Shown piece by piece: positions 1-26,157 of a stretch of DNA of 64,000 nt. This stretch comes from Branchiostoma floridae (taxonomy: Eukaryota > Chordata > Leptocardii > Amphioxiformes > Branchiostomatidae), in NCBI RefSeq assembly GCF_000003815.2, contig NC_049983.1, positions 22,062,796 through 22,126,795 on the forward strand, in the 5' to 3' direction. Both the position numbers and the translations under genes were made by a program. The notes below the pieces were generated by a model, which was not told the origin of the DNA, ran no database searches, and worked only from the letters and a program-made list of their open reading frames with translations. Position 1 is the first letter of the stretch, and every line of letters starts with the position of its first letter.

Positions 1-2706
1 GCCGGCGGCGCTCACACATTAACCAAATACACATCAGCGACAAATATCTCCTCCTCGGCAGACACGGACACGCCACTGGGATCACTAAAGTTTCCGGGTA
101 ACGCCGAAGTTCCGTCCCCGCCAAGCACGATCGGCTTTGAGTTGACGTAGCTCTCTGTAGTAACACAATAGAGCGAGTACTATGTTACTCAATCCTATGA
201 TCACTAAAGTGTGATTACACCCAAAGGGGTGCCCCCATAGCTCAACTGGTAGCAGCCTCACAGTTTAGCCTTTGTTTCCAATTAGTTCGTAACTGGAAGA
301 TTGTTTTTAAATAAATAGATTAAAGAAGAAAACTTGTGTCAAAGGTATGGTCTGTTTGCTTAAGTCAGCTCTTCACTGTCTGCGGGTACATTTACCTTGC
401 GAGCTGACGGAGGTTGATGGCGGTACGACACCCTGTGGGCTAGTGGAGGCAATGGTTGTTGTCTGCCCACCTGCAGAACGCACCTAATAATGAACAAAAA
501 GGTAAGGGTGACTGATCTTTAACTGGTTGGTTTTGTGTCGTATGCCGAAGATCATCTCGGTTCTCCTGTTTTGGATGAAACGAAGTTCAATGAGAATATG
601 ACATTAAAGCTAAGACTTCATTGTCATTGACCACTGTAATAAGATGAACTCCCATAGTTTCCTTGCAATTTTCTAAATCGTCTAGAGCAAACAGGTTATA
701 AAATAACTGTGCTAACAACATATGGGAATTGTGGTGTCTGAAAGAACGACAACAGACAACAAGAAAAAAAGCGGCTCACTGTGGGTTTGAACAAGAGATC
801 AACCATTGCCGTCCTCTCAGAAATACAGCAGCCAGGCTGACCAGGGGTGGAGGGAGAGTCCACAGCAGGATGGCCAGGGGCGCGGACAGTGTCCACAGAT
901 TTTGTCGGCTGCAGATAGGAGGAAAATTGTAATTTGTCAAAGCCGTGTGGTATCACCATTATTGATGCAGCTTCCTTTTTCAAAATATGTTGATGCTAGT
1001 AAAATTGTAAGACACATTCATTTAAATAAAAGACAACATCTTTTATTACTGCTACAGTAGTTCAAATAGAGGACCTTATGGGATGAACAAAAACAGACGC
1101 ATGCTCACCTTTTGACTATCCTGCTCGATGGTGCTGAGATACATCCCGACAAAGGCCCCACCGACGATCAGTAACACCAGAACGATGGCAATGGTCAAGG
1201 CAGTGCAAACATAGCTAGATGTACACACTGAAAAATTATCAATCTGTTATCATCTATTGTGACACCTGTAAAGAAAATGCGTGAGTATAAACACTTCGGT
1301 ACCATACCGATCGTAGGTTACAAGATTGACATCAATCCATTCAAAAAGTCCTATAATCCTTGATGGGAATGCTTAATTGACACAGTCTATTGACTATGAA
1401 CTGGCAATGAGTATAAATCTAAAGAATAGAGATACAAAATTTATCTCAAGGCTAAACTTGCTAAAGTAAACCATTATAGGATAACAAACTTGGCCCAAAA
1501 GTTGTCAAATCTACTTCTGTCATCAAGTCTCTTGAAATATGTTATATCTAAACAAAAACTTTGTATGAGTGACCCACCACAATCCGAATCTTGACCAGCG
1601 TTTGGTACTGGTGGATTTGGGTTGCCAGCGTTTTGTAAGTACATCGGATTCGGGCTCAGCCAGTTTTGCACTGGTGCCTGCAATGTGTAATCAAAGATCG
1701 AGTCTGAATCGTTGCAGCTACTTAAAGGAGTGTTTGTGTCCGTCTGTTCGTTGCTGTCGGCTTCATCCTGACCCATGTAGGCAACGGCGTATGGCGTAAT
1801 GTCGACAGCATCGTCCTCCTCCTCCCGGTATCTAACAGCATATGGCTGGCATGTGAGGTCGCCATCACCTGCGGCTGGTCTAGAGGTGGCTTCATCAGCT
1901 TCATGATTTGCAGTTGCATCCCCCTGAATACAGGAATTGTCTGAATCTAAAGCGGGTTCGGTGTGGGCATTCACTTGCTGCATTTGGGCGTTTTGTGGAT
2001 ACATCTGTTTTGGATGTTGTGAGGTACATCTTTGGGTGTCTTCGTTGGCATCGCGGGCGTTTTCAGAGCTCGTGGGATTGCAAGGTTTGTGCCCACCTGA
2101 ATCGAAGGCCGGTTCTGGGGGAACATTAGACCCGTGCATCGGTGTGCTTTGTGGATACATAGGATTGGAGTTACACGCGTTAGGCTCAAGGGTGTCTTGA
2201 TTATACGTTGGGTTTGGATCTCTGGCGTTTGTTGAGGTCTTGGGATTTTGAGAAAGGGCATCCGGTGGCTGACGAGTGGCACCCGTGTTCTGAACATCAG
2301 GCACTGAATCTCGAGTGCCACATGCTCCTAAGGTGGGAGAGATATCAGTGCGTCCTCTTGAAGCTGGCTCCGGTGTCTGGATGGGTTTCTTTTTCCTTCG
2401 CATCCCTTTTGACGCTGTCTGAATGAACACCAAGTCATCCTTGGACATGTACGCAGCTGCAAATGCTTCAACATTATGTTGCTCTTTTGACTTGACACCT
2501 CTTGGTGGTCTACTGCTCTCTTCAGCATCTCTTTTCGTAGACATGCGATAATCATCGTCCTCGTCGTCTCCCTTATAGCCAGCACTGTCAACTTGTCTTG
2601 CAGCATTTCTGCGTCTGGTTAGATGAAGTGTCACCCTGGTTTCGTCTCTCACCAATCCATTTGAGCTGTTTTCTGCGACTGTCTTTGAGGTGAGATCCTC
2701 GGCCAT
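1..2706 (-). CDS. NHL-repeat type II membrane protein, array copy A (3' part cut by window edge)
   Basis: Exons by splice sites and phase: 2706-1578 (start MAEDLTSK, 376 residues plus 1 nt), 1227-1109 (TM), 908-780 (stalk), 483-396 (Thr/Ser/Pro), and 154-1 (first part of the NHL domain, running off the edge). The cytosolic tail is acidic and low complexity, with a basic MRRKKKPIQTPE stretch, the PYAVRY and ITPYAVAYM motifs and three NPxY motifs (NPTYNQD, NPMYPQS, NPMYLQN). The TM exon encodes a Val/Leu/Ile-rich helix ending in YLSTIEQDSQK. The stalk has one SPSTPG unit. The start is chosen because MAEDL/MAEE is conserved in all five copies. The function is inferred as a cell-surface receptor with an extracellular beta-propeller; the ligand is unknown. 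The first-exon donor reads GTGGGT, where B, C, D and E have GTGAGA or GTGAGT. Confidence 0.82.
228..300 (+). repeat. tRNA-like (SINE-like) remnant in last intron of copy A
   Basis: The sequence contains an A-box-like TAGCTCAACTGGTAG (238-252) and a B-box-like AGTTCGTAACT (284-294) at tRNA-like spacing, opposite to the host gene. The same block sits at the same place in copies B, C and D. It is probably an old tRNA-derived insertion older than the duplications. No cloverleaf could be closed, so it is not called as a tRNA gene. Confidence 0.4.
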
Positions 2707-4746
2707 ACTTCTAAAACGTCTCGAAAGGCGTACGCGTTATGCTAGGCACAGGTGGTGTTGATGTCGTTATACAAGGCTACACAGTGGAGTTCATCGGCAA
2801 CAACAGACCGCTGTTTTCTAATTCAGCTATGTCGTTCTAGATGGTGATTTATTCACAAAAGTCTATTGTATGTGTACTGGCTGTTTGTTTGAATCTGTGT
2901 GGGGGTGTGCTCATGATTAAACATTATGTTTCTTTCTTGACGTTGGCAGTTATGATGAGACCAGGAAACTGGTAAAAGAACCCATTTCCAATCTAGCAAT
3001 TATTTCCCTATCTCACGTGTCAGGCAACTTCTAGCGCTGTTGTGTTTTACGCAGTGCAACGTGACTAAACTTCGTTTCTTCCATGAGTTTTTAATTTGTA
3101 CTTTGTGGCTCAGTCAACACTGTGAAAAACGCCACTTCCTCCTGGGGGAGGTGTAAACACTGTCTGTGCTTATGATGCTTTAAAGCTCCATATTAACAGT
3201 CCAGTTATTCGACCCCTTATTATTAATTGACTTGCCAGTCAACCGTCAAAGCTGGAATCCACTTCCCTACCCGTATCCCTCCATGCCCTCGTCTGTTTCT
3301 TTAATGGCGCAGGTACTTCGTTTTTCAGGACGAAAAAAATACCAAAGAGGACAAGTATCCACTTCACTATTCTTGCACATAAAGCCGCGTTTGAATCACA
3401 GAGCGATCGCCTGAAAAAAAGAGCTGTTTAACGTCTTCTCTCTTCATCATTTAGAAACACTATTAGCTTCCTTTATCAATCAATCTAAACATTCAGAACG
3501 TTTATAGCAAATAAAAGAGCAACAGAATCAGTCTATGTAGAGATGTGATCCTGCGTTACACTGGAAAAACGTCAACACTTATAACTACTTTCATCAAACC
3601 ACGAGCCGCAAAACAACGGTCACGTTTAATTTTTTTTTCAATTTTCTACTCTTATTGAAAGCAAATGGTCTGCTCAATCATGTTCATAGACCACTGCTGG
3701 GAGTTCATAATCAATAGCCATAATTACTCCACGTTCACGTGTACAATCTTGAGACAAGCATACCACATGGCCGGAAACACAATCAGAACAAAACGTTTTT
3801 TTTTTATTATGGTGATGGAAATCATAGCAACGAACGACACTGAATATTCAACCAATCAATTATTCACAAGGAGGCGGGGAAGGTTCCATCTTCACGACTA
3901 CGAGAACTCCTCATCTGAGCCATTCTTTTTCACGTTAAGAAAATAAATGACAATGACAATGACCATATTGTCCTTTGTCATGTACAATTGGCGTCAAATA
4001 AATCTTTAACCATTATAATGATAATGACAATAACGATGATAATAATAATAGTAATAATGGTGGAACTTTTTATACAATCTTAGCCACTAATGCAGATGAG
4101 CTAAGAAAATCGCACAGTCACTAGTACAGCATTACATTGCTACATATACAATGCACTCCATCTACTTTGCATGGATCAAAAACTATTTTCAAATTGGTAT
4201 TATGTACATTGTGTATTATGTACACGTTGTCATTCTAAGTGAATAAATTCGAATGAAATAAGTGTATGGGTGTAAGGAGCCCTGTATATGATCCGCCATC
4301 TTGGACTTTGGTCGATTTATTTATATCTAATTATGACAGATATTCTACATAACATAAGATTTTATTGATGTAATTAATCAGTAGTAATATATCAAATAAA
4401 TTTACTTTGTCAGAACCGAAATAAGTTTTTTTTTTTTGTCAAGAATGCCTGCGAATAAACGGTTGCCATGGCAACACGAAAATTTGGAAAATTTTCAAAA
4501 CTCTGTGAAGTTGTTGCCAACTAAAATTTAGGAAAACACACTAAATCTGGTGGCTCAAGCATAAGCCGTTCTGGGGTTATGCGACATGAAAGTTGGCGCG
4601 GCCTCGAAAGCCCCACCCTCCTCTGAATCGGGTTAAATATGTGACATGAGTACTGCATAACCACAACCTACTTTTCTCTAATTCCTCAGTGAAGACACCC
4701 GAATGAAATAAAACATGCATGTGGACAGCCCCGTATTTACACACAA
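2707..4746. other. Intergenic flank between copies A and B
   Basis: No coding sequence is recognised. The part next to gene A is alignable by eye with the upstream flanks of B, C and D, including two CACGTG boxes (3014-3019 and 3736-3741). A TTTATT in a conserved context near 3806 is a candidate poly(A) signal for copy B. ATA/ATG-rich simple sequence lies at about 4015-4075. About 4285-4690 is a segment without match in the other flanks and looks like an insertion. Confidence 0.5.
3014..3019. promoter_or_regulatory. Conserved CACGTG box upstream of copy A
   Basis: Palindromic E-box CACGTG about 310 bp upstream of the copy A start, in the conserved context TCTCACGTGTCAG. A second box lies at 3736-3741 in the context CACGTTCACGTGTACAA. 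Equivalent pairs occur upstream of B, C and D. Conservation over diverged flanks suggests a bHLH-type site, but function is inferred. Confidence 0.4.
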
Positions 4747-4870
4747 CTACTCGTCGGGAAATACTATCTGCCGTGGAAAGATTGTCTCGATGGAGGAGTG
4801 CAAGTTAGTCACCACTAACTGTCCACACGGTCCCATAGCAATACCCCACGGGTTCGTATAATTCCCAAAC
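4747..4870 (-). pseudogene. Orphan C-terminal fragment of an NHL domain
   Basis: The minus strand reads a C-terminal blade ending in IFPRQIVFPDE and a stop, matching the ends of B (IFPRPMVFPDE) and C (IFPRQMVFPDE). It also shares NYTNPWGIAMGP with the D version FTNPWAVAIGP. Homology stops abruptly at an ATG/ATA microsatellite (about 4877-4955), and no upstream propeller sequence follows before the true end of copy B at 5085. It is a remnant of a deleted copy or of unequal exchange. Confidence 0.8.
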
Positions 4871-4876
4871 GGTAAT

Positions 4877-4955
4877 AATGATAATGATAATAATTTATGA
4901 TAATGATGATGATGATGATGATGATAATTATAATACTGATAATAATAATGGCATG
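4877..4955. repeat. ATG/ATA-rich simple repeat
   Basis: Imperfect trinucleotide array (GATGATGATG and TAATAATAATG types) bordering the orphan NHL fragment. Similar ATA-rich tracts occur downstream of C, D and E (about 10139-10180, 16170-16215, 21245-21290), so the tract is part of the duplicated unit. Confidence 0.75.
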
Positions 4956-5084
4956 AATTAAAACTATTTTCAAATAGGTATTTTGTGCATTGTGTAATCA
5001 CAAGTTATTTTCCTCTGTTAATACAGTGAGTGTATAATACTGATGTTAATAACCCGACATTTACACAACAGACTCCTACTATGC

Positions 5085-8000
5085 CTACTCATCGGGAAAT
5101 ACCATCGGTCGTGGAAAGATTGTCGCGATAGAAACTGAGTCAGTCACCACCAACTGTCCACCCGGCCCCATAGTAACAGAACACGGACTTGTAACGTTCA
5201 CAACGGTGCGGACAAACTCCCCGCGGCTTGTGAACATGTCCACCCGTCCGTTTGCTGAGTCAGCCACGAAGATGTGACCAAGAGGGTCGGCACAAATGCC
5301 TAGAGGATTGCCTTTACCGACTCTCACAGTGTCGAACGCGAATGAGTACTGTCCGTCGTGATCGTACACGTGGACGCGGGAAACAGAAGTGTCCGTGACA
5401 AGAATATTCCCGTCCTTGTCTGTTGTGGCATACTGCAGTTGGGCGCCTTCTTTCCCCCCGAAACTCCCATCAAACGAGCCGTTTGGTTTGAACATCAAGA
5501 TCTCATTAGGTGTTACCACGATGATACTGTTATCGCGAGCGTTCACAGAAATTCTGGGATACCAGGCTTCTCGTGGCACATCAAACGTGGCCACCGGCAG
5601 ACCGTCCTTACTGTACTGTACCACCTGTACACCGCCGCCGGCAAAGAATTTTTTCCCCACTACCCAGATACGGCCCTCTTGGTCAATGTCCAAGCCGGTA
5701 GGGAACATTACTCTGCCATCTTCCCCCGGTGCTACTGTTCTGAAAAGTCGGAGGGAAACGCCGTTCATGTTGAAGACTTGGACGCGTTGGTTGTTCCATT
5801 CAGCGACAAATATCTCATTATCGGCAGAGACGGCAACCCCGCTTGCAACGCCAAGTTTTCCACGTGACGTTCCCTCCCCACCGAACACGATAAGCTTCAA
5901 GTTGACGTAGTCATCTGTAGTAGTACACAGTATCTAGAGTGAGTACAGTGTTACTTAGCCCTATTTTTGTTGTGTTTGCAATCAAAGGAATGCCCCTATA
6001 AGTCAAAAGGTAGCAGTCTCACAGTCGAGTTCTTGCTTCCAATTGGTTCGTTACTGGGGGATTGTGGTTAGGATGAATAAAGGACAAAACTTGTGCCAAA
6101 TGTAGGGTCTGTTTACTTCGGTCATTTCTTCTCGGTCTGATTCAGAATTGAACTACAAATTCCAACACCAAAATAGGACTACCGAAGAGGCAGTGACCTT
6201 CGAGAGCGGACCGAATATTGGACTCCAGGCTAGATTTTCTTTTCGCCATGTAGGCCAGATTGTTAAGATTTTTGAAGCATTGAGCTTAAGGACAGTGTCA
6301 TTTTTCTTTAAGTTGAGTTTGTGTTGCTGAACTTATTACACCCCCCCCCCCCCTCGCTTCCAGCCCTCTACCCACTCTGACATTGCTGGTACACTTACCT
6401 TGCGTGCTGGCGGAAGTTGTAGGCGGTACGGTACCCTGTGGGCTGGTGGAGACGATGGTTGTTGTCTGCCCACCTACAAAACGCACCTAAAAATAAAAAA
6501 AGGCAAGGGTTAATGATCTTCAATTAGTTGATTTTGAGTCGTAAGTCAAAGATTATCCATTTTCTCCTGTTTTGGATGGGACGCAGTTCAATGAGAACAT
6601 GTCATTGAAGCTAAGACTTCATTATCATTGACCAATGCACTAAGATGAATTTCCATAGTTTCCTTGCAATCTTCCAAATCGTCTAGAGCAAAGAGGCTAT
6701 AGAATAATGGTGCTGAGAACATACGGGAATTGTGGAGTCTGAAAGAACGATAACAGATAACAAGATCTAGAAATAAAGCAGCTCACCGTGGTTTTGGACG
6801 AGAGATTGACCATTGTAGTCCTCTCAGAAATGCAGCAGTCAGGCTGACCAGGGGTGGAGGGAGAGTCCATATCAGGGTGACCAGGGGCGTGGTAAGTGTC
6901 CACAGATTGTGTCGGCTGGAGAAAGGAAGATAAAATGTGGGATTAGATTTGCCAAACCTTTCGTAATCCATGGTAACATGCATGGTTCGATGTGAAACTG
7001 GTGGCCAAAGAAAGATTAGTTCAATAGTAGATGGTTTAATGTTTAAAATGCCATTGAAGTTTTCCATGTAACATACGTACTAGTATATCATGCACGAAAA
7101 ATTGGAATTACCAATAGCGGTAAATACCAGGTAAGTATTTTGATGGTTGCTTTTCGCACACACTGCATGTCAAAAATAACTCATTGGATGCAGACATGCT
7201 ACGCGAGAAGCACGATATCTTATTGATGCAGCTTCCTTTTTTTTCAAAATATGTTGATGCTTGAGTAAAAGTTAAGACACGGTCATTCAAAGAAAAGGCA
7301 AAACCAGTTAGTACTGTAGTTCAAATAGGGGACCTTATATATGGGATGAACAATGACACACGCATGCTCACCTTTTGACTATTCTGCTCGCTGGTGTTGA
7401 GATACATCCCGACAAAGGCCCCAACGACGATCAGTAACACCAGAACGATGGCAATGGTCAAGGCAGTGCAAACCCTGCTAGATGTACACACTGAAAAAAA
7501 AATCAATCTGTTATCATCTACTGTGACACCTTTTAAAAAATGCATGGATACGAACAAAACACTTAAGTGCCTTAAGTACTCCTTGATAGGGAAGCATTAT
7601 TGACACAGCAAAAGTACAGTGACTATCACACTGTTGGCTGTAAACTGCAAAAAACACTTTGTCTCACCACAATCTGCCTCTTGACCAGCGTTTGGTACTG
7701 GTGGATTCGGGTTGCCAGCGTTTTGTGCGTACATCGGATTCGGGTTCAATGCGTTCTGCAAGTACATTGGATTCGGGTTTAGCCAGCTTTGCGCGGGTGC
7801 CTGCAAGGCAATAACCGAAACGTCTGAATCGTTGCAGCTGCTTGGAGGCGTGTTAGTGTCGGTCTGTTCGCTGCTGTCGGCGTCATCTTGGCGCATATAG
7901 GCAACAGCGTACGGTGTAATATCGACAGCATCGTCCTCTTCGCGGTATCTAACGGCATAGGGCTGGCATGTGGGGTCGACGTCGCCATCACCTGAAGCTA

Positions 8001-8838
8001 GTCCAGAGGCGGCTTCATCATCTTCCTGGTTTGCTGTTGCATCCCGCTGAATACTGGGATTATCTGAATCTAAAGCGGGTTCAGGGTGGGCAGCTAGCTG
8101 CTGCATTTGGGCGTTTTGTGGATACTTCTGCTTCTGATGTTGTGAAGTACAGTTTTGCGTGTCTTCGTTGGCTTTGCGGGCGTTTCCAGAGCTCCTGGGA
8201 TTGCAGGGTTTGTCCTGACCTGAATCGAAGGCCGGTTCCGGGTGAACATTAGGTGAGCTCTGTGGATACATCGGATTGGAGTTACAAGTTTTGGGATTAA
8301 GGGTATCTTGGTTATACGTTGGGTTTTGAACCCTGGCGTTTCTAGAGCTCATGGGATTTGGAGAAAGGGCATCCGATGGACGGTGAGTTCCACCCGTGTT
8401 CTGAACATCACCCACTGAATCTGGAGTGCTAGCAGAATTTTCGGATGACCTGCATGCCCCAAAGGCGGCAGAGAAATCAATACGTCCTCTTGAAGCTGTC
8501 TCTGGTGTCTGGATGAGTTTCTTCTTTCTTCGCATCCCTTTTGACAGCGACTGAATGAACACCAAGTCATCTTTAGACATGAGCGCAGCTGCAAATGCTT
8601 CAACATCATGTTGCTCTTTTGACTTGCCACTTCTTGGTGGTCTATCGCTCTCTTCAGCATCTTTTCTAACAGACATGCGATAATCATCGTCCTCATCGTC
8701 CCCCTTATAGCCAGCACTGTCAACTTGTCTTGCAGCTTTTCTGCGTCTGGCCAAAGGAAATGTTGCCCTCGTTTCGTCTCTCGACAAACCATTTGAGCTG
8801 ATTTCTGCCACGGTCTTTGAGATGAGATCCTCGGCCAT
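5085..8838 (-). CDS. NHL-repeat type II membrane protein, array copy B (complete)
   Basis: Five exons: 8838-7668, 7490-7372, 6915-6787, 6486-6399 and 5914-5085. The total is 2337 nt, 778 aa, with all phases consistent (1, 0, 0, 1). Residues 1-390 are the cytosolic tail with four NPxY motifs (NPTYNQD, NPMYPQS, NPMYLQN, NPMYAQN). Residues 391-430 hold the TM helix, 431-473 a stalk with one SPSTPG unit, 474-502 a Thr-rich segment (GQTTTIVSTSP), and 503-778 the NHL propeller with repeated units of the kind GVAVSADNEIFVAEWNNQRV. There is no signal peptide; the TM after a charged tail suggests type II topology. NHL domains are known binding platforms (protein or glycan); any receptor role here is inference. 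The adjacent copies share promoter, introns and exon sizes. Confidence 0.88.
5990..6061 (+). repeat. tRNA-like remnant in last intron of copy B
   Basis: Same block as at 228-300, with a degraded A-box-like part (TATAAGTCAAAAGGTAGCAG) and TTGGTTCGTTACTGG downstream. It lies between the Thr-rich and NHL exons. Confidence 0.35.
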
Positions 8839-10535: not shown

Positions 10536-13500
10536 CTACTCATCCGGAAATACCATCTGTCGTGGAAAGATTGTCGCGACAGAAACTGCGTCAGTCACCA
10601 CCAACTGTCCACCCGGCCCCACAGCAACAGCCCGCGGGTTTGTAACGTTCACAACGGTGCGGACAAACTCCCCGCGGCTTGTGAACATGTCCACTCGCAC
10701 GTTTGCCGAGTCAGCGACGAAGATGTGACCAAGAGGGTCGGTACAGATACCTCGAGGAATGCCTTTACTGACTCTCACAGTGTCGAACGAGAATGAGTAC
10801 TGTCCGTTGTGATCGTACACATGGACGCGGGAACGAGAAATGTCCGTAACAAGAATATTCCCGTCCTTGTCTGTTGTGGCGTACTGCAGTTGGGCGCCTT
10901 CTTGCTTGCCGAAACTTCCAGCAAAGGAGCCGTTTGGTTTGAACATCAAGATCTCATTAGGTGTTAGCACGATTTTACTGTTATCGCGCGCGTTCACAGA
11001 AATTCTGGGACACCAAACTTCTCGTGGCACGTCAAACGTGGACACCGGCAGGCCGTCTTTACTGTACTGTACCACCTGCACAGCACGGCCGGCAAAGAAT
11101 TTTTTCCCCACCACCCAGATACGGCCGTCTTTGTCAATGTCCAAACCGGTAGGGTACATAGCTCTGCCATCTTCCCCCGGCACAACTGTTTTAAAAAGTC
11201 GGAGGGAATCGCCGTTCATGTTGAAGACTTGGACGCGTTGGTTGCTCCATTCAGCGACAAATATCTCATTATCAGCAGACACGGCCACCCCGCTCGAACT
11301 GCCAAGTTTTCCACGTGACGTTCCTCCCCCACCGAACACGATTGGCTTCAAGTTGACGTAGTCATCTGTAATGACACACAATAGAGTGAGTAGAGTGTTA
11401 CTCAGTCCTATGTTTACTAAGCTGTGTTTGCACTCGATCAAAGGTTTGTCCCTGTAGCTCAAAAGGTAGCAGTCTCACAGCCGAGCTCCTTTTTCCAATT
11501 GGTTCGTTACTGGGAGATTGTACTAGTAAGGATGAATAAAGGACAAAACTTGTGCCAAAAGTAGGGTGTGTTTACTTTGGTCAGCTCTTCACGGTCTGAT
11601 TCAGAGTTGAACGATAACTTCCATCGCCAGAGAAAATTGGACTACCGAAGGAGTAGCGACCTTCGGGACCAGACCAAATTTTCGGCATGTAGGCCATGCT
11701 ATATATAAGATATTGGTAGTACTAAGCTTTAAGGACAGTGTCATTGTTATTAATGTTGGATTTGTGTTGCTGAACTCGTACACACCCCTAGCCTTCTATC
11801 CACTCTAATATTGCAGGTACACTTACCTTGCGAGCTGACGGAGGTTGATGGCGGTACGACACCCTGTGGGCTGGTGGAGGCAATGGTTGTTGTCTGCCCA
11901 TCTGCAGAATGCACCTAAAAATGAACAAAAAGGCAAAGGTGAATGATCTTTAACTGGTCGAATGTCGAAGATCATCCATTTTCTTCTGTTTTAGATGAAA
12001 CGAAGTTCGATGACAACATGGCATTGAAGCTAAGACTTCATTGAGCATTGTACTTCTTTCTGTTATGAAGGACAAACAGCTCTGGAGACAGAACTTTACT
12101 TGCTCCACCTCACAAGAGGATAATGGGGGGGGGGGGGGTAATGATGATGTTGATGATGATAATGTACTATGAGGTACGTCCATAGTTTCTTGTAATCTTC
12201 CAAGTTTTATGGAGCAGAGGGGCTATAAAATAATGGTGCTAAGAACCTGTGGAGTTCGAAAGGACGACAACAGACAACAAGAAATAAATTCAACTCACCG
12301 TGGGTTTGGACAAGAAATCGGCCATTGTGGTCCTCTCATCAGAGATGCAGCAGTCAGGGTGACCAGGGGTGGAGGGAGAGTCCACAGCAGGCTGACCAGG
12401 GGTGGAGGGAGAGTCCACAGCAGGGTGACCAGGGGTGGAGGGAGAGTCCATATCAGGGTGACCAGGGGTGGAGGGAGAGTCCATATCAGGGTGACCAGGG
12501 GTGGAGGGAGAGTCCATATCAGGGTGACCAGGGGTGGAGGGAGAGTCCACAGCATGGTGACCAGGGGTGGAGGGAGAGTCCATATCAGGCTGACCAGCGG
12601 TGGAGGGAGAGTTCACAGCATGGTGACCAGGGGTGCGGTCAGTGTCCACAGATTTTGTCGGCTGTAGATAGGAGGAAAATTGTAATTTGTCAAAGCCTTG
12701 TGTTATCACCATGACATCTTATTGATGCAACTTCCTTTTTTTCAAAATATGTTGATGCCAGTAAAAATTGAAGACACATCCATTCAAATAAAAGACAACA
12801 TCTTCTAGTACTGTAATTCAAATAGAGGAACTTATGGGATAAACAGTGACAGACGCATGCTCACCTTTTGACTATCCTGTTCGCTGGTGCTGAGGTACAT
12901 CCCGACAAAGGCCCCACCGACGATCAGTAACACCAGAACGATGGCAATGGTCAGGGCAGTGCAAACCCAGCTAGATGTACACACTGAAAAAAACATCAAT
13001 CTGTGACACCTTTAAAGGAAATGCGTTGATTCAAACCAAACACTTCAGTACCATACGGATCGTAGGTTACAAGATTGACATAAATCCATTCAAACAGTCC
13101 TATAATCATTGATAGGGAGGCTTTATTGACATAGTCTATTAACTATAAACTGCCACCGCCTATAAATTAAATAGAATAGAGATACAAAATTTACCGTAAG
13201 ATTCTACAGGCTAAAGTAAAACATTATAGCATAACAAACTTGTCAAATGTACTTGTGATGTCAAGTCTATTGAAATCTCAAAAATTCAAGTCTAGTGTTA
13301 CATCCAAACAAAAAATCTGAATACTTCATTACGACGTAATACATCATATCATATCATTTCATATCTAAAGTATTCATGGCAAATACACTCAGAAACAAAC
13401 ACACATACACACAGACATGCAGACACTCACACTTGCTCAACATCATTCATCAAAAGGATGTGAATCAACAAACACTTTATAGAATTGTCTCACCACAATC

Positions 13501-14625
13501 TGCCTCTTGACCAGCGTTTGGTACAGGTGGATTCGGATTGCCAGTGTTTTGTCCGTACATCGGATTCGGGTTCAATGCGTTCTGTTGGTACATTGGATTC
13601 GGGTTCAGCCAGCTTGGCGCGGGTGCCTGCATGGCAATAACCGAAACGTCTGAATCGTTGCAGCTGCTTGGATGCGTGTTCGTGTTTGTGTCCGTCTGTT
13701 CGCCTTCATCTTGGCGCATATAGGCAACAGCGTAAGGTGTAATATCGATAGGATCGTCCTCTTCCCGGTATCTAACGGCATACGGTTGGCATGTGGGGTC
13801 GCCATCACCTGCAACTGGGCTAGAGGCGGCTTCATCATCTTCACGATTTCCTGTTGCTACCCCCTGAATACTGGGATTGTCTTCATCTAAGGAGGGTTCA
13901 GTGTGGGCATTCAGCTGCTGCATTACGTGTTGTGGATACGTCTGCTTCTGGTTTTGCGAGGTTAGGTCTTGGGTGTCTTCGTTGGCATCGCGGGTGTTTT
14001 CAGAGCTCATGGAATTGCAGGGTTTGTCCTGACCGAAGGCCGGTTCCGGGTGAACATTAGGTGTGCTTTGTGGATACATCGGATTGGAGTTACAAGTGTT
14101 GGGATTAAGGGTGCCTTGGTTATACGTTGGGTTTTGATCCCTGGATTTTCTAGAGCTCATGGGATTTAGAGGAAGGGCATCCGATGGACGGTGAGTGGCA
14201 CCCGTGTTCTGAACATCACCCACTGAATCTGGAGTGCTAGTACAATTGTCGGATGACCCACATGCCCCAAAGGTGGCAGAGATATCAGCGCGTCCTCTTG
14301 AAGCTGTCTCTGGTGTCTGGATGGGTTTCTTCTGTCTTCGCATCCGTTTTGGCAGCGTATGAATGAACACCAAGTCATCCTTGGACATGAACGCAGCTTG
14401 CTCTTTTGACTTGACACGTCTAGGTGGTCTATTGCTCTCTTCAGCATCTCTTCTCACAGACATGCGATAATCATCGTCCTCGTCGTCTCCCTTATAGCCA
14501 GCACTGTCACCTTGTCTTGCAGCTTTTCTGCGTCTGGTCAAAGGAACTGTTGTCCTCGTTTCGTCTCTCACCAATCCGGTTGAGCTGCTTTCTGCGACTG
14601 TCTTTGAGGTGATATCCTCGGCCAT
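10536..14625 (-). CDS. NHL-repeat type II membrane protein, array copy C (long stalk)
   Basis: Five exons: 14625-13494, 12983-12865, 12661-12299, 11914-11827 and 11365-10536. The total is 2532 nt, 843 aa, with consistent phases. Residues 1-377 are the tail with four NPxY motifs (NPTYNQG, NPMYPQS, NPMYQQN, NPMYGQN). The TM is at 378-417, the stalk at 418-538, the Thr-rich exon at 539-567 and the NHL domain at 568-843. The stalk exon is 363 nt against 129 nt in A and B because it holds eight SPSTPG units of 33 bp. Extra proline/serine units should lift the propeller further from the membrane and may carry O-glycans (inference). The NHL exon is 830 nt, as in B, with a clean CATTACAG acceptor. 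Confidence 0.88.
11446..11520 (+). repeat. tRNA-like remnant in last intron of copy C
   Basis: A-box-like TGTAGCTCAAAAGGTAGCAG and B-box-like TTGGTTCGTTACTGG, at the same site as in A, B and D. Confidence 0.38.
12361..12624. repeat. Coding 33-bp tandem repeat in stalk exon of copy C
   Basis: Eight 33-bp units of the type GACCAGGGGTGGAGGGAGAG plus a variable part. The minus strand reads SPSTPG followed by HPDMD, QPAVD, HPAVD or HHAVD. The unit length is a multiple of three, so copy number can change without a frameshift. A, B and E have one unit and D two. Confidence 0.92.
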
Positions 14626-15106: not shown

Positions 15107-15281
15107 CATTTAGAAGCCACTTAATTGCACGGCCTATTAGTCAGTGAATTCCGTGCAATTATCCGGCTGGTGCAATCATGCGAAGTTATCTTGCAGGACC
15201 AAACCGGTTTGGGATTTGGGGATTCCGTGCAGTTAACAGAAGCGTGCGTTAATCCGTTGTGCAATTAACTGGCTTCTACTG
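15107..15281. mobile_element. Tc1/mariner-like MITE, 175 bp, in the flank of copy C only
   Basis: Terminal inverted repeats of about 24 bp: the left end begins CATTTAGAAGCCACTTAATT, and the right end read in reverse begins CAGTAGAAGCCAGTTAATT. TA dinucleotides at 15105-15106 and 15282-15283 act as target duplication. The flank of copy A runs straight from GATG to CTTTAAAGCTCC where C has the insert, giving an empty-site comparison. There is no coding capacity. Confidence 0.82.
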
Positions 15282-16502: not shown

Positions 16503-19500
16503 CTACTTATCTGGAAATACCATCGGTCGTGGAAAGATTGTCGCGACAGAAGCTGCGTCAGTCACAACCAACTGTCCACGCGGTCCTATAGCAACAGCCC
16601 AAGGATTTGTAAAGTTCACAACGGTGTGGACAAACTCCCCGCGGCTTGTGAACATGTCTACCCGTCCGTTTATTGAGTCAGCCACAAAGATGTGACCAAG
16701 AGAGTCGGTACAGATGCCTAGAGGTGCACCTTTACCGACGATTACAGTGTCGAACGAGAATGAGTACTGCACGTCGTGATCGTACACATGGACGCGGGAA
16801 ACAGAAATGTCCGTAACAAGAATATTTCCGTCCTCGTCTGTTGTGGCATACTCTATAGTTGGGCGCCTTCTTTCCCTCCGAAACTTCCATCAAACGAGCC
16901 GTTCGGTTTGAACATCAAGATTTCGTTCGACGCTACCACGATGATACTGTTATCGCGCGCGTTCATGGCGATTTTTGGAAACCAATCTTTTCGTGGTACG
17001 TCAAACGTGGCCACCGGCAGGCCGTCTTTACTGTACTGTACCACCCGCACAGCGCCGCTGGGAAAAGAAAACTTCCCTACCACCCAGATACGGCCGTCTT
17101 TGTCAATGTCCACATCGGTAGGGTACATCACTAGGTCATCCCGGCCCGGCACCACTGTTCTGAAAACACGGAGGGAAACGCCGTTCAGGTTGAAGACTTG
17201 GACGCGTCGGTTGAGCACCTCAACGACAAAAATCTCTTCATCATCAGACACGGCCACCCCACTGGGATCACTTAAGTTTCCGAGTAACGCCGAAGTTCCT
17301 TCCCCGCCAAGCACAATCGGTTTCGAGTTGACGTAGCTCTCTGTAGTAACACAAGAGACTAATGAGAGCGAATACTATGTTACTCAGTCCTATGATCGCT
17401 AAAATGTGATTACTCTCAAAGGCATGCCCCTATTGCTCAAATGGTAGCAGCCTCACAGTCGGGATCCCGACTACATTTAGTTCGTAACTGGACGATTATA
17501 TCTAAATAGATAAATTGAAGGAGAAAACTTGTGTCAAAGGTATGGTCTGTTTGCTTAAGTCAGCTCTTCACTGACTGAATCAGAGTTGAACTATAAGTTG
17601 CAACGGCAACATAGAAAACTGGACTACCGAAGGGGTAGCGATCTTCGGGTGCCGACCAAAGCTAAACAAGACTGGACTCCAGGCTAGATTTTCTTTTCGC
17701 CATGTAGGCCAGAATTTTAAGATCATTGGACGCACTAAGCTTAAGGACAGCGTCATTGTTCTTTGAGTCGAATTTGTGTTGCTGAACTTATACACTCCCA
17801 GCCTAGCCCTCTATCCATTCTAATATTGCGGGTACACGTACCTTGTGAGCTGTTTGAGGTTGGTGGCGGTACGGTACCCTGTGTTTTGGTGGAAGCAATG
17901 GTTGTTGTCTGCCCACCCGTATAACGTATCTAAAAAGAACAACAAGGCATAGGTGATTGGTCTTAAACTGGTTGATCATCACGTTTCCGGCGTATGTCGA
18001 ATATCACTCCGTTTCTGCTGTTTTGGATGGAACTAAGAACACGGCATTGAAGCCAAGACTTCATTGAACATTGTACTATGATGTACTTCGGAATCCAGAG
18101 TTTCCTGGCAATATTCCAAATCTTCTAGAGCAAAGAGACTATAACATAATGGTACAAATAAGTATGTGAATTGAGGAGTCCGAAAGTACGACAACAGACA
18201 ACAAGAAATAAACCAGCTCACCGTGGATATGGACAAGAGATTGACCGTTCTCACCCTCTCAGAAATGCAGCGGTCAGGCTGACCAGGGGTGGAGGGAGAG
18301 TCCACAGCAGGCTGACCAGGGGTGGAGGGAGAGTCCACATCAGGGTGACCAGGGGTGTGGTCACTGTCCATGGCTTTTGTCGGCTGTAGAGAGGAGATAT
18401 TATAATTATATATTATGTATATTTGCCAACCTGTTTTATCATCATGATAACCTTTAGCTATTAATGGTTTTTACCATACATAGTTTGATATGAAACTGGT
18501 GGCCAAAGATCGATTAGTTCAACAGTAGATGGTTTAATGTGTAAAATGTCGTTGAAGTTTGCCGAAAAGTTGGATTTACCAAAAACGGTAAATGCCAGGT
18601 AAGTATTTTGTTGGTTGCTTTTTGGCAAACTAGATCATTGGATGTGAACATGCTACGCGTGATGCCTGATATCTTATTGATTATTCTTTATTATTTATTT
18701 TGTTATTGTTTTCTTTTCTTTTCAAAATATGTTAATGCTGAAGCAAAACGTTAAGACAGTCATTCGAAGACAAGGCAAAATCTTCCAGTATTGTAGTTTA
18801 AAACAGAGGACTTTATAGGAAGAACAATAACCGACACAAGCTCACCTTTTGACTATCGTGCTCGCTTGTGTTGATATACATCCCGACAAAGGCCCCACCG
18901 ACGATCAGTAACACAAGAACGATGGCAATGGTCAAGGCAGTGCAAACCCAGCGAGATGCACACACTGAAAAATTATCAATCTGTTTAGTATCATAAATGT
19001 ATATTGTGACACCTTAAAAGAGAATGGGTGGATACAAAGGAAACACTTCAGCACATTTAAGCACTCTTTATAGGGAAGCTTTATTGACAGTAAGGTAAAA
19101 TAGAGTGAATTTCGCATTGTCGACTTTGAACAACAAAATAGAGATACAAACTAAATTCTTAACAAACTTGATTTATTAATCTATCTTGATACAATCAGTG
19201 GGGGATATATGTATGTGTCACTGCATTTCTAGTTACAAAGTACGCTTTTGTGTATTTATTTATCTTTACATTGTAAGAGCTGCTAAGTCTAAAGATATAG
19301 TTAAATATACCTATGTTGTCAAGTCTCTTGTAGTATATTGAATTTAAACAAAAATCGTGAACAATTCATTACGTACGACATCATATCTAGAGCATTCCAT
19401 GGACACACACTCACACACACACGCACACAAAAAAACACCCACACAGACACGCACACTCACACCTGCTCAACATCATTCAATGGATGTGAAAACAAACACT

Positions 19501-20559
19501 TTGTAGAAGTGACTCACCACAATCTGAATCTTGACGAGCGTTTGGTACTAGTGGGTTCGGGTTGCCAGTGTTTTGTACGTACATTGGATTCGGGTTCAAT
19601 GCGTTTTGCGGGTACATTGGATTCGGGCTCAGCCAGTATTGGGCGGGTGCCTGCAAGGTGTTATCAAAGACCGAAGCGTTTGAATCGTTGCAGCTGCTTG
19701 AAGAAGGCGTGCTTGTGTCAGTCTGTTCGTTGCTGTCGGTGTCACGCTGACCCATGTAGGCAACAGCGTACGGTGTAATGTCGACAGCGTCTTCCTCTTC
19801 CTGGTATCTAACAGCATATGGCTGGCATGTGAGGTCGCCAAAACCTGCATCCGGTTGTGAGGTACATCTTTGGGTGTCTTCGTCGGCATCGCGGGCGTTT
19901 CGAGAGCTCGTTGAAATGCAGGGTTTGTCCCCACCTGAATCGAAGGCCGGTTTCGGGGGAACATTAGACCCGTGCATCGGTGTGCTTTGTGGATACATCG
20001 GATTAGAGTTACAAGTGTTGGGATTAAGGGTATCTTGGTTATACGTTGGGTTTTGATCTCTGGCGTTTTTTGAGCTAATGGGATTTGAAGAAAGGGCATC
20101 CGATGGACGGTGAGTGCCACCCATGTTCTGAGCATCACCCACTGAATCTGGAGTGCAAGCAGAATTTTCGGATGACCTGCATGCTCCGAAGGTGACAGAG
20201 ATACCAGTGCGTCCTCTTGAAGCTGTCCCTGGTGTCTGGATGGGTTTCTTTTTTCTTCTCATCCCTTTCGACAGTGTCTGTATGAACACCAAGTCATCCT
20301 TGGACATGTACGCAGCTACAAATGCTTCAACTTTGGCATCGCCAGTGACACCCGTTGGTGGTCTATCGCTCGCTTCAGCAACTCTTCTTACAGACATGCG
20401 GTAATCATCTTTCTCATCGTCTCCCTTATAGCCAGCACTGTCAACTTGTTTTGCAGCTTTTCTGCGTCTGGTCAGAGGAACTGTTGCCCTCATTTCCTCT
20501 CAAGAGAAAACATTTGTGCTGTTTTCTGCGACTGTCTTTGAGGTGAGATCATTGGCCAT
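16503..20559 (-). pseudogene. NHL-repeat membrane protein, array copy D (two disabling lesions)
   Basis: Exons by homology: 20559-19518, 18964-18846, 18383-18222, 17929-17842 and 17340-16503. The splice sites and middle exons are intact: two SPSTPG units and four NPxY motifs (NPTYNQD, NPMYPQS, NPMYPQN, NPMYVQN). Lesion 1: in-frame TGA at 20502-20500, about codon 20, where B has AGA. Translation could restart at an in-frame ATG at 20493. Lesion 2: in the NHL exon, CTGCAG of the sisters reads CTCTATAG here (16851-16858), a net +2 frameshift that creates TAG at 16855-16853 in mid-propeller. The remaining reading frame (16787-16503) encodes the last blades. It may be a pseudogene, a truncated protein from the internal start, or partly an assembly error. 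The two lesions support real decay. Confidence 0.8.
17423..17498 (+). repeat. tRNA-like remnant in last intron of copy D
   Basis: ATTGCTCAAATGGTAGCAGC, then the small palindrome GTCGGGATCCCGAC and TTAGTTCGTAACTGG. Of the four copies this one has the best anticodon-arm-like hairpin. It is absent from the equivalent intron of E. Confidence 0.42.
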
Positions 20560-22307
20560 ACTTCTTAAAGGTCTCCAAAGGTATTATGTTAGGTGGTGTT
20601 GACGTCGTTATATCAGGCTGCAGAGTGGAGCTCATCTGCAACATCAGACTGGTTACTGTTTTTTTCTAGTTCAACTTGGTCGTTTTATATGCTGATTTAT
20701 CAGAAAAACTCTATTTGTTGTACGTGCACCACTGGCTGTTTGAATATGTGCGTGGGTGTACTCATCATAAAACATTATGTTACTGTCTTGACTTTGGCAG
20801 TTCTAATAAGACCAGGAAGAAGAGCAGAAGAACTAATTTCCTATGTATCTATTTCTCACGTGCCAGACAATTTCAATCGCTGTTGTGTTATGCCATGGTA
20901 ACGTGGCCCAACATCGTTACTTTCATGTATATTGATTTACTCCACGTTCACGTGTACAATCATAAGACAACCATACAACATGGGTAGAAACACAATCAGT
21001 GCAAAACTTTTTATTGTGGTGACGGAAACATTAGCAACAAATTGACAAGAATATGTAACCAATGAATTACTCATGATGAGGCCGGGAAGGTACCATCTTC
21101 ACAACTACGAAAACTCTTCGAGAGAACATCCTCATCTGAACGCCATTCTGTTTCCCGTTAAAAGTTAAGAAAAATCAAAATGTCTTCGGTGAATATTGTC
21201 CTTGCTACTTTGTCATGTATAACTGACGTCAAATACATCTTCAACAGTAATAACAATGAGAATGAAAATAAGAATAATAATAATAATGGGACTCTTTACA
21301 TAATCTTCAACACTAACACACTGAAGAGCTAAGAGAATTGCACAATATACTACAGTCCCCAGGACAGTTGTTACACTTGTTACATATACAGAGAACACCA
21401 TCTACATTGCATGGATTGAAAACTTTAAGAGCAGTATAGACTACTTTCAAATAGGTGTTATGTACATTGTGCAAGTTGTTTTCCTGGGTGAATACATTCG
21501 AATGAAATAAGAGTACGGATGGTCACAGCCCTGTATTTACACGACAGACTCCTACTATTCATACTCATTGAGAAATTAATGTCCTTGCTACTTTGTCATG
21601 TATAAGTGACGCCAAACACATCCTCAACGATTATGATAATGAGATAAAAAGAAAAAAACGATCCAACAGAACAAACGAGTTTCACGTTTTCAACTGGTTG
21701 TATCGCTACCAGGCAGCACTGCCTGTTGAAAAATCAGGCGAGAGAAACAGCAAAATAGACCAAACAATATACCAAATGAGTTAGTTAGCCGTACCACTTT
21801 GTCGGCAAACTCATTGGTACATCTTCAGTCTATTGGGCCCATTTTACTATTGTTCAAGTAACCAATGCAGTATGGCAGAGACTAGGATGACCGCAGGCTG
21901 CAGTCTTCGTCAAGTTAAATGCAGGATAATTTCAGACATTCAAGTTACCTTAATTACTGACACGTGGCGTCAGCAATCGATGGTCTAAAGTGATTAATCT
22001 TCTAAATAATCCTAACCACTCACAAAGATAAGCTGACAAAAAGCACAATGCACTCATACTATATCCACTGGCACAGTAGTACATAGCAGTCTTACTACAG
22101 AGGAAACCATCTTAAACTTGACCATACAAGAGTTACTGTACGTTTTGTCGTGTCAATAAAACTTGTCTAAACAGGACACGTTAAAACTAATAGTTATATA
22201 ATACTTTTGAATAAACGATATGTGTAGAGGATAGGGCACTGCAACATCCGAATGAAATGACAAGGATGTTCACAGCCCTGTATTTACACAACAGACTCAT
22301 ACTATGC
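20560..22307. other. Intergenic flank between D and E with a truncated NHL 3' end
   Basis: The two CACGTG boxes of D (20857-20862 and 20949-20954) are only about 90 bp apart against about 720-990 bp in A-C, so the D flank has lost 600 bp or more. At about 21530-21575 the end of an NHL gene (context ACGACAGACTCCTACTAT) is recognisable but breaks off at GAGAAATTAATG. It then runs into a second copy of flank sequence (TGTCCTTGCTACTTTGTCAT, also near 21197). About 21600-22250 shows nothing recognisable. Confidence 0.5.
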
Positions 22308-24845
22308 CTACTCATCCGGAAATACCATCTCTCGTGGAAAGATTGTCGCGACAGAAGCTGCGTCTGTCACCACCAACTGTCCACCCGGTCCCACAGCAAC
22401 AGCCCACGGGTTTGTAAAGTTCACAACGGTGCGGACAAACTCCCCGCGGCTTGTGAACATGTCCACCCGTCCGTTTGCCGAGTCAGCCACGAAGATGTGA
22501 CCAAGAAGGTCGGTACAGATACCTCGAGGTTTGCCTTTACCGACACTCACAGTGTCGAACGAGAATGAGTACTGCCCGACGTGATCGTACACATGGACGC
22601 GGGAAACAGAAGTGTCCGTAACAAGAATATTCCCGTCCTTGTCTGTTGTGGCGTACTGCAGTTGGACGCCTTCTTGCTTGCCGAAACTTCCATCAAGTGA
22701 GCCGTTTGGTGTGAACATCAAAATTTCGTTAGACGCTACCACGATGATACTGTTATCGCGCGCGTCCACAGAAATTCTGGGATACCACTGAGCTACACTT
22801 GGCACGTCAAACGTGGCCACCGGCAGGCCGTCTTTACTGTACTGTACCACCCGCACAGCGCCGGCGGCCGCCACCCAGATACGGCCCTCTTTGTCAACGT
22901 CCACGTCGGCAGGGTAGATTACTTTGCCTTCTCCACCCGGGACCACTGCTGGGAAAAGTCGGAGGGAAACGCCGTTCATGTTGAAGACTTGGACGCGTCG
23001 GTTGCTCCATTCGGCGACAAATATCTCATCATCATCAGACACGGCCACACCGCCTGGACTGCCGAGGTCTCCACGTGACGCTCCTTTCCCTCCGAACACG
23101 ATCGGCTTCGAGTTGACGTAGTCATCTGTAGTAGCACACAATATAGTGTTACTCTGTCTTATGATTTCTAGGTGTATTTGCACTTAAAGGGATGCTCTGG
23201 GGATGGTGACAGACGGTCACCGAAACGTCAATGTAAATAAGCGTAGGATTGTGTGAAAAGTCTTATTCAGTGACGCAACAGCCAGAAGAAGGTGTCTATT
23301 CGTGGACTGGAAGCACAAATTGATAACTTTTTTCTTCAAAAAGGTCAAATACTAATGAATCTATGGAAAGTGGCCTTGTTTCAACATTGAATTTGTAATT
23401 TGGATACAGCTAGCTGCACAAGCTTTTTCAGCCCCCTCCGTCCACTATGATATTGATCATGATTACAGTTACCTTGTGAGCTGTAGGGAGTTGATGGCGG
23501 TACGGTACCCTGTGGACTAGTGGAGGCTGTGGTTGCTGCCTGTCCGCCAAAAGGACGTATCTGTAAAAGACCAAAAGGTTATCAGCAATTGGTCGTCACC
23601 TGATCATGTGATTTTCCATAGTGGTCATCATCATCATCATGATCATCACGGTTGCCCGGACCAGGTCCACTCTCTCCTTCCAAACGTCTCTGTCCCCCAT
23701 AGCATTCTCTAAGTCCTCAACCCGCAACCCCACATCACGAGCAAGCAAGTGGTAAAGCCAGTGTACCTCAGAGTTAAAATTACCCTGCCCCTTTCTCCTG
23801 TTTTGGATGAAACGAAGTTTGGTGAGAACACGGCATTAAAACTAAGAGATATGATATACCTCCTCATTTTCCTTCCAATCTTGCAAATCATCTAGATCAG
23901 AAACGATTAGCCAGTGGCCATTAGTGCCAATAACATGTGAGTATTGTAGAGTATAGGAGGACGGCAGAAAACAAGAAATAAAGCAGCTCACCGTGGGTTT
24001 GGACAAGAGATCGGCCATTGTCGTCCTCTCATCAGAGTTGCAGCAGTCAGGCTGACCAGGGGTGGAGGGAGAGTCCACATCAGGGTGACCAGAGGTGTGG
24101 TCAGTGTTCGTAGGTGTTGTCGGCCACCCCGTCGGCTGGACAGAGGATAGAATGTTGAAAGTTTTACATTGGCGATTAATGGTCGTCAGGTATTCAAAAC
24201 TTATGTGTAAGAAGCGTTTCGATGTGTTATCAGTTACAAGTATACCAGAGGCAGATAAGTTCAACCGTAGATGGCATCTTAATGTATACAACATCGTTGG
24301 AACTTAATATTTTTAGTTCGCCTTTTATGTACATGTACGCTACGCCTGATGTCAGAAATCTTATTCTAACAGCTTCTTTTTTCATAATGTTGATACTAGA
24401 ATAAAACATTCAGACATATTGAATACGCTTAATTAGCTCATAAGCAAATACCGGCCTTTCTACGTTTCAAACTATGACATGATGCTAGAATAAAACATTC
24501 AGACCTATTCATTTGTATAAACCTTATGATCGTTAAATAGAGAAACTGTCACAAAAGAAAAGAGGAATGAAAGACACAGGCCTTGTGACTATCCTGCTCG
24601 CCGGTGTTGAGATACATTCCGGCAAAGGTTCCACCGAAGACTAGTAACACCAGAACAATGGCAGCGGATACAGAAGCGCATACCCAGCGAGATGTACACA
24701 CTGAAAAACCATCCATGACATCGGTAAAGGAAATGGATGGATTATGGATACAAACAAAATACTTCTGAATAAATACCATACGCACCATAGGTTACATGAT
24801 TGACATCAATTCAAACAGTCCTAGAGTATGATTTTACATAAAACA

Positions 24846-24907
<62 letters not shown>

Positions 24908-26157
24908 ACTTACTTACTGATACACACAAACAAAGACACCCAGAGAAGCAGAGACACGCACCCACGTTCACACGTTCACACACACCAAGATGACAACATG
25001 TACAAAGATGTGACTGAAACAAATACTTTGAAATGTAAACGTATCTCACCACAAATTGTTTCTTGTTGGGCGTTAGGCACCGGATTCGGGTTCAGCGCGT
25101 TTGGTACATACATCGGATTCGGGTTCAGTGCGTTTTGTGGGTACGTCGGATTCGGGTTCAATGCGTTTTCTCCGTACATCGGATTCGGATCCAATGCGTT
25201 ATCATCAAAGACCGAAATGTCCGTGTCGCTGGCGCTGCTTGAAGGCGTGTTTGTGTTTGTATCTGTTTGACCGGTAGTATCAGAGTCATCCTGACCCATG
25301 TAGGCAACGGCGTACGGTGTAATATCGACAGCATCGTCATCCTCCTCCCGGTATCTAACAGCATAGGGCTGGCATGTCGGGTCGCTAGGACCTGCATCTG
25401 GTCCAGAGGTGGCTTCATCATCTTCTTGATTTGCCGCTGCATCCCGCTGAATACTGAGATTGTCTAAGGCGGGTTCAGTGTGGGTATTCATCTGCTGCAT
25501 TTGGGCATTTATTGGGTGCGTCTGCTTTGGATTTTGTGGGTTTAGGGTGTGTTTGTTCGAATCGAAGGCTGCGTCCGGTTGAACGCCAGACCTCGATGTC
25601 GGTGTACTTTGCGGATACATCGGATTGGAGTTCCGAATACTGGGGTTTGGGGCATCTTGGTTATAGGTAGGGTTTGTGTCCCGGGCGTTTAGAGACCTGG
25701 TGGAATTTGGAGGAAAGATGTCCGATGGATGACGAGCGGCACCCGTGTTCCTATCTTCCCCCATAAAGGCTGGAGTGTTAGCAGTATTTTGGGATGACCC
25801 GCATTCCCGAAAGTTGGTAGAGATATCAGTGCGTCCTCTTGAAGCTGTCTCTGGTGTCTGGATGGGTTTCTTCTTTCTTCGCATCCCTTTCGACATTGTC
25901 TGAATGAACACCAAGTCATCCTTGGACATGTACGCAGCTGCAAATGCTTCAACATTGGTACCGCTAGCAGTAACACCAGTCGGTGGCCCATTGTCGTCTT
26001 CACCATCTCTTCTCACAGACATCATGTCATCATCATCGTCCTCATCGTCTCCCTTGTAGCCGGAACTGCTCACAGGTCTTACAGTGCTCCCGGATCTGAT
26101 CGGCCTCATGTTGTCGCTTGAGAAACACTTTGCGATGTCTCCAGGTTCCTCGGCCAT
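22308..26157 (-). CDS. NHL-repeat type II membrane protein, array copy E (most diverged)
   Basis: Exons: 26157-25050, 24700-24582, 24135-23992, 23560-23473 and 23125-22308. The total is 2277 nt, 758 aa, in phase throughout. The start MAEEPGD is chosen by homology; the same frame stays open upstream with an ATG at 26331, which would add 58 residues with no counterpart in A-D. The tail has five NPxY motifs (NPTYNQD, NPMYPQS, NPMYGEN, NPTYPQN, NPMYVPN), three of them in 33-bp repeats at about 25082-25200. The TM is at residues 370-409, the stalk at 410-457 with one SPSTPG unit, and the NHL domain at 487-758. The TM exon ends CACAAG followed by GCCTGT, a GC donor, where the other copies have GTGAGC. 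If that donor is not used, the protein would end shortly after the TM helix. The NHL exon is 12 nt shorter than in B and C. Confidence 0.78.
24849..24905. repeat. CA dinucleotide microsatellite
   Basis: About 28 CA units in the first intron of copy E. Confidence 0.97.

Follow-up and report, generated by a model that had tools for sequence, protein, structure and literature searches.

To our knowledge, NHL propellers of animals are known mainly from the TRIM ubiquitin ligases and from the teneurins. We describe here an array of NHL-propeller genes in Branchiostoma floridae, found in a window of 64,000 nucleotides (the whole stretch of DNA that was analysed; contig NC_049983.1, positions 22,062,796 to 22,126,795), and we read their products, with somewhat more confidence than doubt, as recognition receptors: a tandem family of proteins that cross the plasma membrane once, in type II orientation, and carry a multi-tyrosine tail. 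This reading is favoured because the tyrosine motifs of the tail are conserved and one face of the propeller is variable. The TRIM-NHL proteins (TRIM2, TRIM3, TRIM71, Thin and Brat) have the same six-bladed NHL domain and are the closest by sequence and by fold, but the amphioxus proteins have a tail, a transmembrane (TM) helix and a stalk in the place of RING and B-box, and CxxC is absent from all five tails. Teneurins are single-pass type II proteins with an intracellular N-terminal domain and an NHL domain in the ectodomain, as described in the available part of PMC6428715, a layout that the topology predicted for the amphioxus proteins would match. They differ in having EGF repeats and a superfold of roughly 2000 residues, whereas the spliced product of our copy B has 778 amino acids, no EGF or YD-repeat match and one small stalked propeller, and is encoded in a tandem array. 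PknD of Mycobacterium joins a cytosolic kinase through a TM segment to an extracellular NHL sensor; here a disordered tyrosine-motif tail replaces the kinase, and no kinship is claimed past the propeller.

Other systems resemble these proteins in the tail or in the membrane layout. CED-1/Draper, LDLR and LRP1 carry NPxY in the receptor tail, as here, and are type I receptors with other ectodomains. Hemomucin/APMAP has a type II anchor, a short tail and a six-bladed propeller of the strictosidine-synthase-like type. In amphioxus, FrLRR and BbLcLRR have leucine-rich repeat (LRR) ectodomains, unlike the NHL domain here. FrLRR has no signal peptide and has been proposed to be a signal-anchor receptor with bacterial binding (PMC10199209, in the section available), and the BbLcLRR tail is phosphorylated by Lck at several tyrosines and uses immunoreceptor tyrosine-based inhibitory motifs (ITIM) or ITIM-like motifs, according to the excerpt of PMC8211107, whereas the pattern [ILVS]xYxx[LIV] has 0 matches in the five tails of the array. 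Judged by their predicted parts, the amphioxus NHL proteins are a new combination of known modules, outside the TRIM-NHL, teneurin and FxNPxY receptor families as defined. Among the literature matches listed (titles and abstract starts, with most subscription journals and supplements outside the scope), none is on transmembrane NHL proteins with NPxY tails, and a search with four tail peptides returned 0 papers. A paper on TRIM diversification (PMC3503706) mentions Branchiostoma TRIMs and, in the part available, no membrane NHL protein; in PMC4284660, on the lancelet genome, 'NHL' occurs 0 times in the main text. The family may already be in animal protein databases as unnamed predicted proteins.

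Architecture and condition of the five copies

Five head-to-tail, collinear units (A to E) run on the minus strand from position 26157 to the window start. In 5/5 units the exon order is tail, TM helix (119 bases), two Pro/Ser/Thr-rich stalk exons and NHL, with intron phases 1-0-0-1 and a reading frame open over all four junctions. Splice sites were placed from the conserved consensus and the reading frame. Because the search patterns already fixed three of the four donors as GT and the acceptors as AG, leaving the TM-exon donor free, the open frames and not the GT count (19/20 donors) are the independent evidence. The single exception is the TM-exon donor of copy E at 24582, which is GC (AAG, then GCCTGT across the junction).

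Copy B is intact from start to stop. Its tail exon (7668..8838) has 390 codons, the TM exon (7372..7490) encodes the single helix LTIAIVLVLLIVVGAFVGM, the first stalk exon (6787..6915) is rich in Pro/Ser/Thr with CC, the second (6399..6486) is rich in Thr/Ser/Pro, and the NHL exon (5088..5914) encodes a six-bladed propeller with the stop right after VFPDE. Copy C, also intact (843 amino acids), has its tail at 13494..14625, its helix at 12865..12983, its stalk at 12299..12661 and 11827..11914, and its NHL propeller at 10539..11365. Copy E, which has the most diverged tail (25050..26157), followed by the helix (24582..24700), the stalk (23992..24135 and 23473..23560) and the propeller (22311..23125), encodes 758 amino acids from the ATG at 26157, or 762 from an upstream ATG, and is open provided that the GC donor works. 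In copy D (tail 19518..20559, helix 18846..18964, stalk 18222..18383 and 17842..17929, NHL 16506..17340), an in-frame stop follows 19 tail codons and the open part of the tail begins at the ATG at 20493; a frameshift lies about halfway through the NHL exon, near 16856. Copy A (tail 1578..2706, helix 1109..1227, stalk 780..908 and 396..483) has an NHL exon (12..154) in which 46 full codons are followed by an in-frame stop (14-12), next to the edge of the window. A sixth NHL scrap, a decayed C-terminus, lies between A and B (4863-4750, minus strand; tblastn, 63% identity to B residues 742-778, E=8.7e-8). The preliminary description of the locus had counted five copies of the whole architecture. 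Five tandem units with the same exon order do stand, but since D is broken, A is stopped and E has the GC donor, the complete architecture including NHL is present in three copies (B, C and E), two of them unblemished.

The propeller assignment is well supported. Pfam NHL (PF01436) scores 79.8 bits in B (E=7.7e-23), 80.9 bits in E (E=3.5e-23) and 76.1 bits in C (E=1.1e-21), against a gathering cutoff of 20. The AlphaFold2 (AF2) model of the B domain has a predicted local distance difference test (pLDDT) of 83.5, a predicted template modelling score of 0.85 and 24 strands, grouped as six blades; this structure prediction and the profile search agree on residues 503-778, the span first proposed, and the 778-residue gene model fits that numbering. 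The best Foldseek match of the B propeller is TRIM2/3, and the closest solved relatives in a sequence search of the PDB are TRIM-NHL domains. The SGL profile (SMP-30/gluconolactonase) also exceeds its cutoff of 26.3 (41.7 bits in B, 46.1 in E, 37.4 in C and 36.1 in spliced B), with scores about half of the NHL scores, as these related propeller profiles overlap. TEN_NHL stays below its cutoff (17-24 versus 27.1 bits), and the Pfam scan of spliced B (E up to 0.01) found no RING, B-box, EGF, YD or kinase domain.

Each protein has one hydrophobic helix, with a mean Kyte-Doolittle value of 2.34-2.97 against 0.85-1.32 for the next window. None of the five has a hydrophobic signal at its N-terminus, which is long and hydrophilic. 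Because of the single helix and the missing N-terminal signal, we favour a predicted type II, signal-anchored topology with the NHL domain outside. The one helix and the Pro/Ser/Thr stalk of the preliminary description are both borne out by hydropathy and the gene models. A 33-bp minisatellite encodes Pro/Ser/Thr stalk in C (8.5 copies, 12355-12635), where it enlarges the first stalk exon, and in D (2.5 copies, 18274-18357). In the predicted proteins, stalk length is set by this coding tandem repeat.

Contrasting change in tail and propeller

The tails contain 3 (A), 4 (B, C and D) and 5 (E) NPxY motifs, exactly as first counted, and all five also have PYAVRY and ITPYAVAYM. Composition shuffles gave a mean of 0.07-0.11 NPxY per tail; for B, C, D and E alike, none of 20,000 shuffles attained the observed count, and for A a fraction of 5e-5 did. 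Eight tyrosine columns are invariant over the five tails (Y44, Y175, Y191, Y294, Y298, Y310, Y314 and Y359, B numbering). YxxQ, which we take to resemble the STAT docking motif, occurs within ITPYAVAYMxQ in all five. The membrane-proximal NPxY belong to a tandem repeat of 33 bp, whose unit encodes 11 residues (about LNPNPMYxQNA). It is present in 2.3 copies in B, 2.4 in C and 3.6 in E by Tandem Repeats Finder, which reported none in A and D at its threshold. In these gene models the number of membrane-proximal NPxY varies together with the copies of this repeat. The B tail is predicted to be disordered, in agreement with the earlier proposal (AF2 mean pLDDT 37.9). It has no match among PDB sequences at E up to 1, and a scan against viral contigs found no relative, with 2 pattern matches of which neither was confirmed.

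Constraint on the tail is concentrated in these motifs. With the ten copy pairs pooled, the tail motifs named beforehand (31 codons of B) have a proportion of synonymous differences (pS) of 0.341 and of nonsynonymous differences (pN) of only 0.006, compared to 0.290 and 0.167 for the remainder of the tail, and 0/5000 random block sets of equal lengths gave values as low. The named motifs are, by this comparison of the predicted exons, under strong purifying selection. Because pN is so low at this pS, protein-level selection, and not recent exchange, has kept them. We also observed that the block EAFAAxxMSKDDLVFIQxxSKGMRRKKKxIQTP at B residues ~80-119 (8601-8482) varies hardly at all among the five tails; AF2 predicts helices in this region with low confidence (B 78-86 and 89-100).

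The propeller changes differently. Among B, C and E, 70/275 NHL positions differ, and they fall in the top loops (DA and BC, 35/75) far more than in the bottom loops (AB and CD, 9/54), the strands (25/137) or the termini (1/9). The top-loop excess has P=2.7e-6 with termini omitted, and top versus bottom gives p=0.0004. With the readable 5' half of D added, the counts become 43/75 for top and 10/54 for bottom. In human versus zebrafish TRIM71, read in the same register, the corresponding face is little changed (top 6/102, bottom 9/43, strands 15/119). This control, read from printed alignment blocks, compares a single pair of orthologues and no paralogues, and it is limited because TRIM71 and Lin41 NHL domains bind RNA, according to structure titles. 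On this evidence the top face of the modelled propeller looks freer to change.

The NHL exon also appears to have a history separate from that of the tail. Between B and C, the divergence at synonymous sites (dS) does not differ between the two parts (tail 0.173, NHL 0.197, p=0.61). E, on the other hand, has a tail distant from those of B and C and an NHL exon close to theirs: dS is 0.652 in the tail and 0.228 in NHL versus B (p=7e-8), and 0.586 and 0.146 versus C (p=2e-10). D is itself a mosaic, with dS versus B of 0.234 in the tail, 0.630 in the 5' half of NHL (p=2.6e-5) and 0.185 in the 3' half. The contrast is weaker versus C (tail 0.257, NHL 5' half 0.442, p=0.032), and reversed but not significant versus E (0.571 and 0.386, p=0.11). 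The start of the NHL exon is ESYVNSKPIVLGG in A and D, and DDYVN in B, C and E. Since tail and NHL dS disagree between copies and the exon starts group A/D versus B/C/E, we read the ectodomain exon as putatively exchanged between copies, by gene conversion or unequal crossing-over, separately from the tail.

Proposed function and its alternatives

As recognition receptors, these proteins would have a cytosolic N-terminal tail of ~375 residues that serves as a disordered scaffold. Its conserved tyrosines (the NPxY repeats, PYAVRY, and ITPYAVAYM with its YxxQ) would dock PTB- or SH2-type adaptors, probably once phosphorylated. The single helix would anchor the protein in the membrane, and the stalk of variable length, probably O-glycosylated, would raise the six-bladed propeller above the surface, where the loops of one face may bind ligand. 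Duplication would free that face to change while the tail motifs stay fixed, and exchange between copies would give the NHL exon a history of its own. The tyrosine tail would signal binding or clustering, and uptake would be among the possible outputs. We infer topology, surface location, phosphorylation, ligand binding, the identity of the adaptors and any immune role from these sequence features. A bolder version, which we put forward only tentatively, is that the array represents a lineage-specific and so far undescribed class of receptors for innate recognition, in which a TRIM-like NHL domain was moved to the surface by phase-1 exon shuffling and the copies diversify their binding face and swap NHL exons on a shared tyrosine-scaffold tail, which would make them the propeller equivalent of the LRR, C-type lectin and SRCR receptor sets that have expanded in invertebrates. 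If true, invertebrate recognition systems would gain a further class of ectodomain, carried by small surface receptors that have a propeller and a multi-tyrosine tail and are encoded by tandem, exon-exchanging genes. The family would also offer a test case of a ligand face and a signalling tail evolving oppositely within one exon-modular gene.

The preliminary description had regarded NPxY as a known signal for clathrin-linked uptake and PTB adaptors, and the proteins as endocytic or signalling receptors. As endocytic cargo receptors, their NPxY would serve as clathrin/PTB sorting signals, like those of LDLR or CED-1, with the propeller capturing a soluble ligand. This account is compatible with recognition receptors and fits the presence of multiple NPxY, under strong purifying selection, in the tail of a membrane protein; the portion of PMC11228867 available also reports that the NPXY of CED-1 binds the PTB domain of CED-6 and that several receptors combine NPXY with other signals. 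The same source gives the form of the signal for PTB-sorted receptors as (F/Y)XNPX(Y/F), with F or Y at Tyr-5, but 0/20 NPxY in the five tails match it: the Tyr-5 residue is D, N or S in 19/20 and V in one. YxxPhi, the acidic dileucine [DE]xxxL[LI] and YxN also have 0 matches in the five tails. Because of these missing signals the clathrin reading is weakened and the tyrosine-scaffold reading survives; a receptor is now better supported than before, by the conserved motifs and the variable face, whereas canonical endocytosis has lost ground and we consider it rather unlikely. A role in adhesion or cell-cell recognition of the teneurin type, with the propeller contacting a partner on a second cell and the tail either tied to the cytoskeleton or freed to enter the nucleus (by way of the basic RRKKK), is less probable still. 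The type II layout with an ectodomain NHL and a long intracellular domain, common to teneurins (PMC6428715, as above), would suit it, as would the near invariance of MSKDDLVFIQ..SKGMRR.KK over the five tails. Spliced B, however, lacks the EGF and YD-repeat matches and has the sub-cutoff TEN_NHL scores given above, and because pS of the basic block is low in comparisons with E (0.10-0.20), its identity may partly reflect recent exchange alongside constraint.

Several observations weigh against recognition receptors too, among them the lack of the canonical NPxY form and the narrowness of the TRIM71 control. The ratio of nonsynonymous to synonymous change, pooled over B, C and E with bootstrap intervals, is 0.83 (0.48-1.76) for the top loops, 0.34 (0.12-1.2) for the bottom loops and 0.34 (0.20-0.58) for the strands, and since the top value does not exceed 1 and the intervals overlap, relaxed constraint would suffice to explain the freer top face, with no need of positive selection. 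With two of the five copies damaged and one non-GT donor, part of the array, as modelled, may be decaying. On topology, the missing N-terminal signal and the long hydrophilic N-terminus favour the extracellular NHL domain of the preliminary description, but the charges flanking the helix do not discriminate, and the frequency of sequons is about the same inside and outside the tail. There are two cysteines in the NHL domain of B, two in that of C and one in that of E, with no conserved pair, which is unusual for an extracellular animal domain, and the TRIM-NHL proteins, to which the closest solved NHL relatives belong, are cytosolic. These relatives, the cysteines and the ambiguous charges would suit the reverse topology, with NHL in the cytosol as an RNA- or protein-binding module like that of TRIM-NHL proteins. 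We regard it as highly improbable: a hydrophilic N-terminus of 375 residues would need to cross the membrane with no N-terminal signal, the strongly conserved tyrosine motifs would end up outside, the Pro/Ser/Thr stalk argues against it, and neither RING nor B-box in spliced B nor CxxC in the tails was found. Slightly less improbable, though still very unlikely, is that the tail/TM exons and the NHL exons are parts of two different, adjacent genes, or that the array consists mostly of relics, and that the architecture is an artefact of prediction. The damaged copies, the GC donor of E and the sixth NHL scrap would agree with this, and novel architectures of lancelets have been attributed to gene-prediction errors (PMC4967905, in the excerpt available). 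But order, strand and phase pattern are identical in 5/5 units, the NHL frame of B, C and E has no ATG from the upstream stop to the first blade, and the tail motifs are under the strong purifying selection described above. Copy E moreover has no AATAAA or ATTAAA from the tail exon to the NHL stop, with such hexamers present in introns of the other copies.

Neighbouring features

Beyond copy E, on the plus strand, lies an exon for an ApeC (apextrin C-terminal) domain (31708-32202, 8.5e-14). An open reading frame at 30278-30676 (+), which has only sub-cutoff coiled-coil matches, may be an upstream part of the same ApeC gene (region 30278-32205). ApeC proteins of amphioxus bind bacteria and peptidoglycan, and ApeC proteins occur in marine and aquatic invertebrates, according to the part of PMC8361754 available. 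The ApeC neighbour fits the aquatic invertebrate source of the DNA and is the one piece of context that would suit the recognition of microbes or self raised in the preliminary description, but as a matter of position only it does not show an immune function for the NHL genes. Further along, the minus strand carries dynein heavy chain exons (AAA_9, AAA_lid_11 and Dynein_C) at about 52227-62101, and self-comparison of the window revealed a 1.5-kb tandem array at 40449-41925, with a period of ~40 bp and copies ~97% alike.

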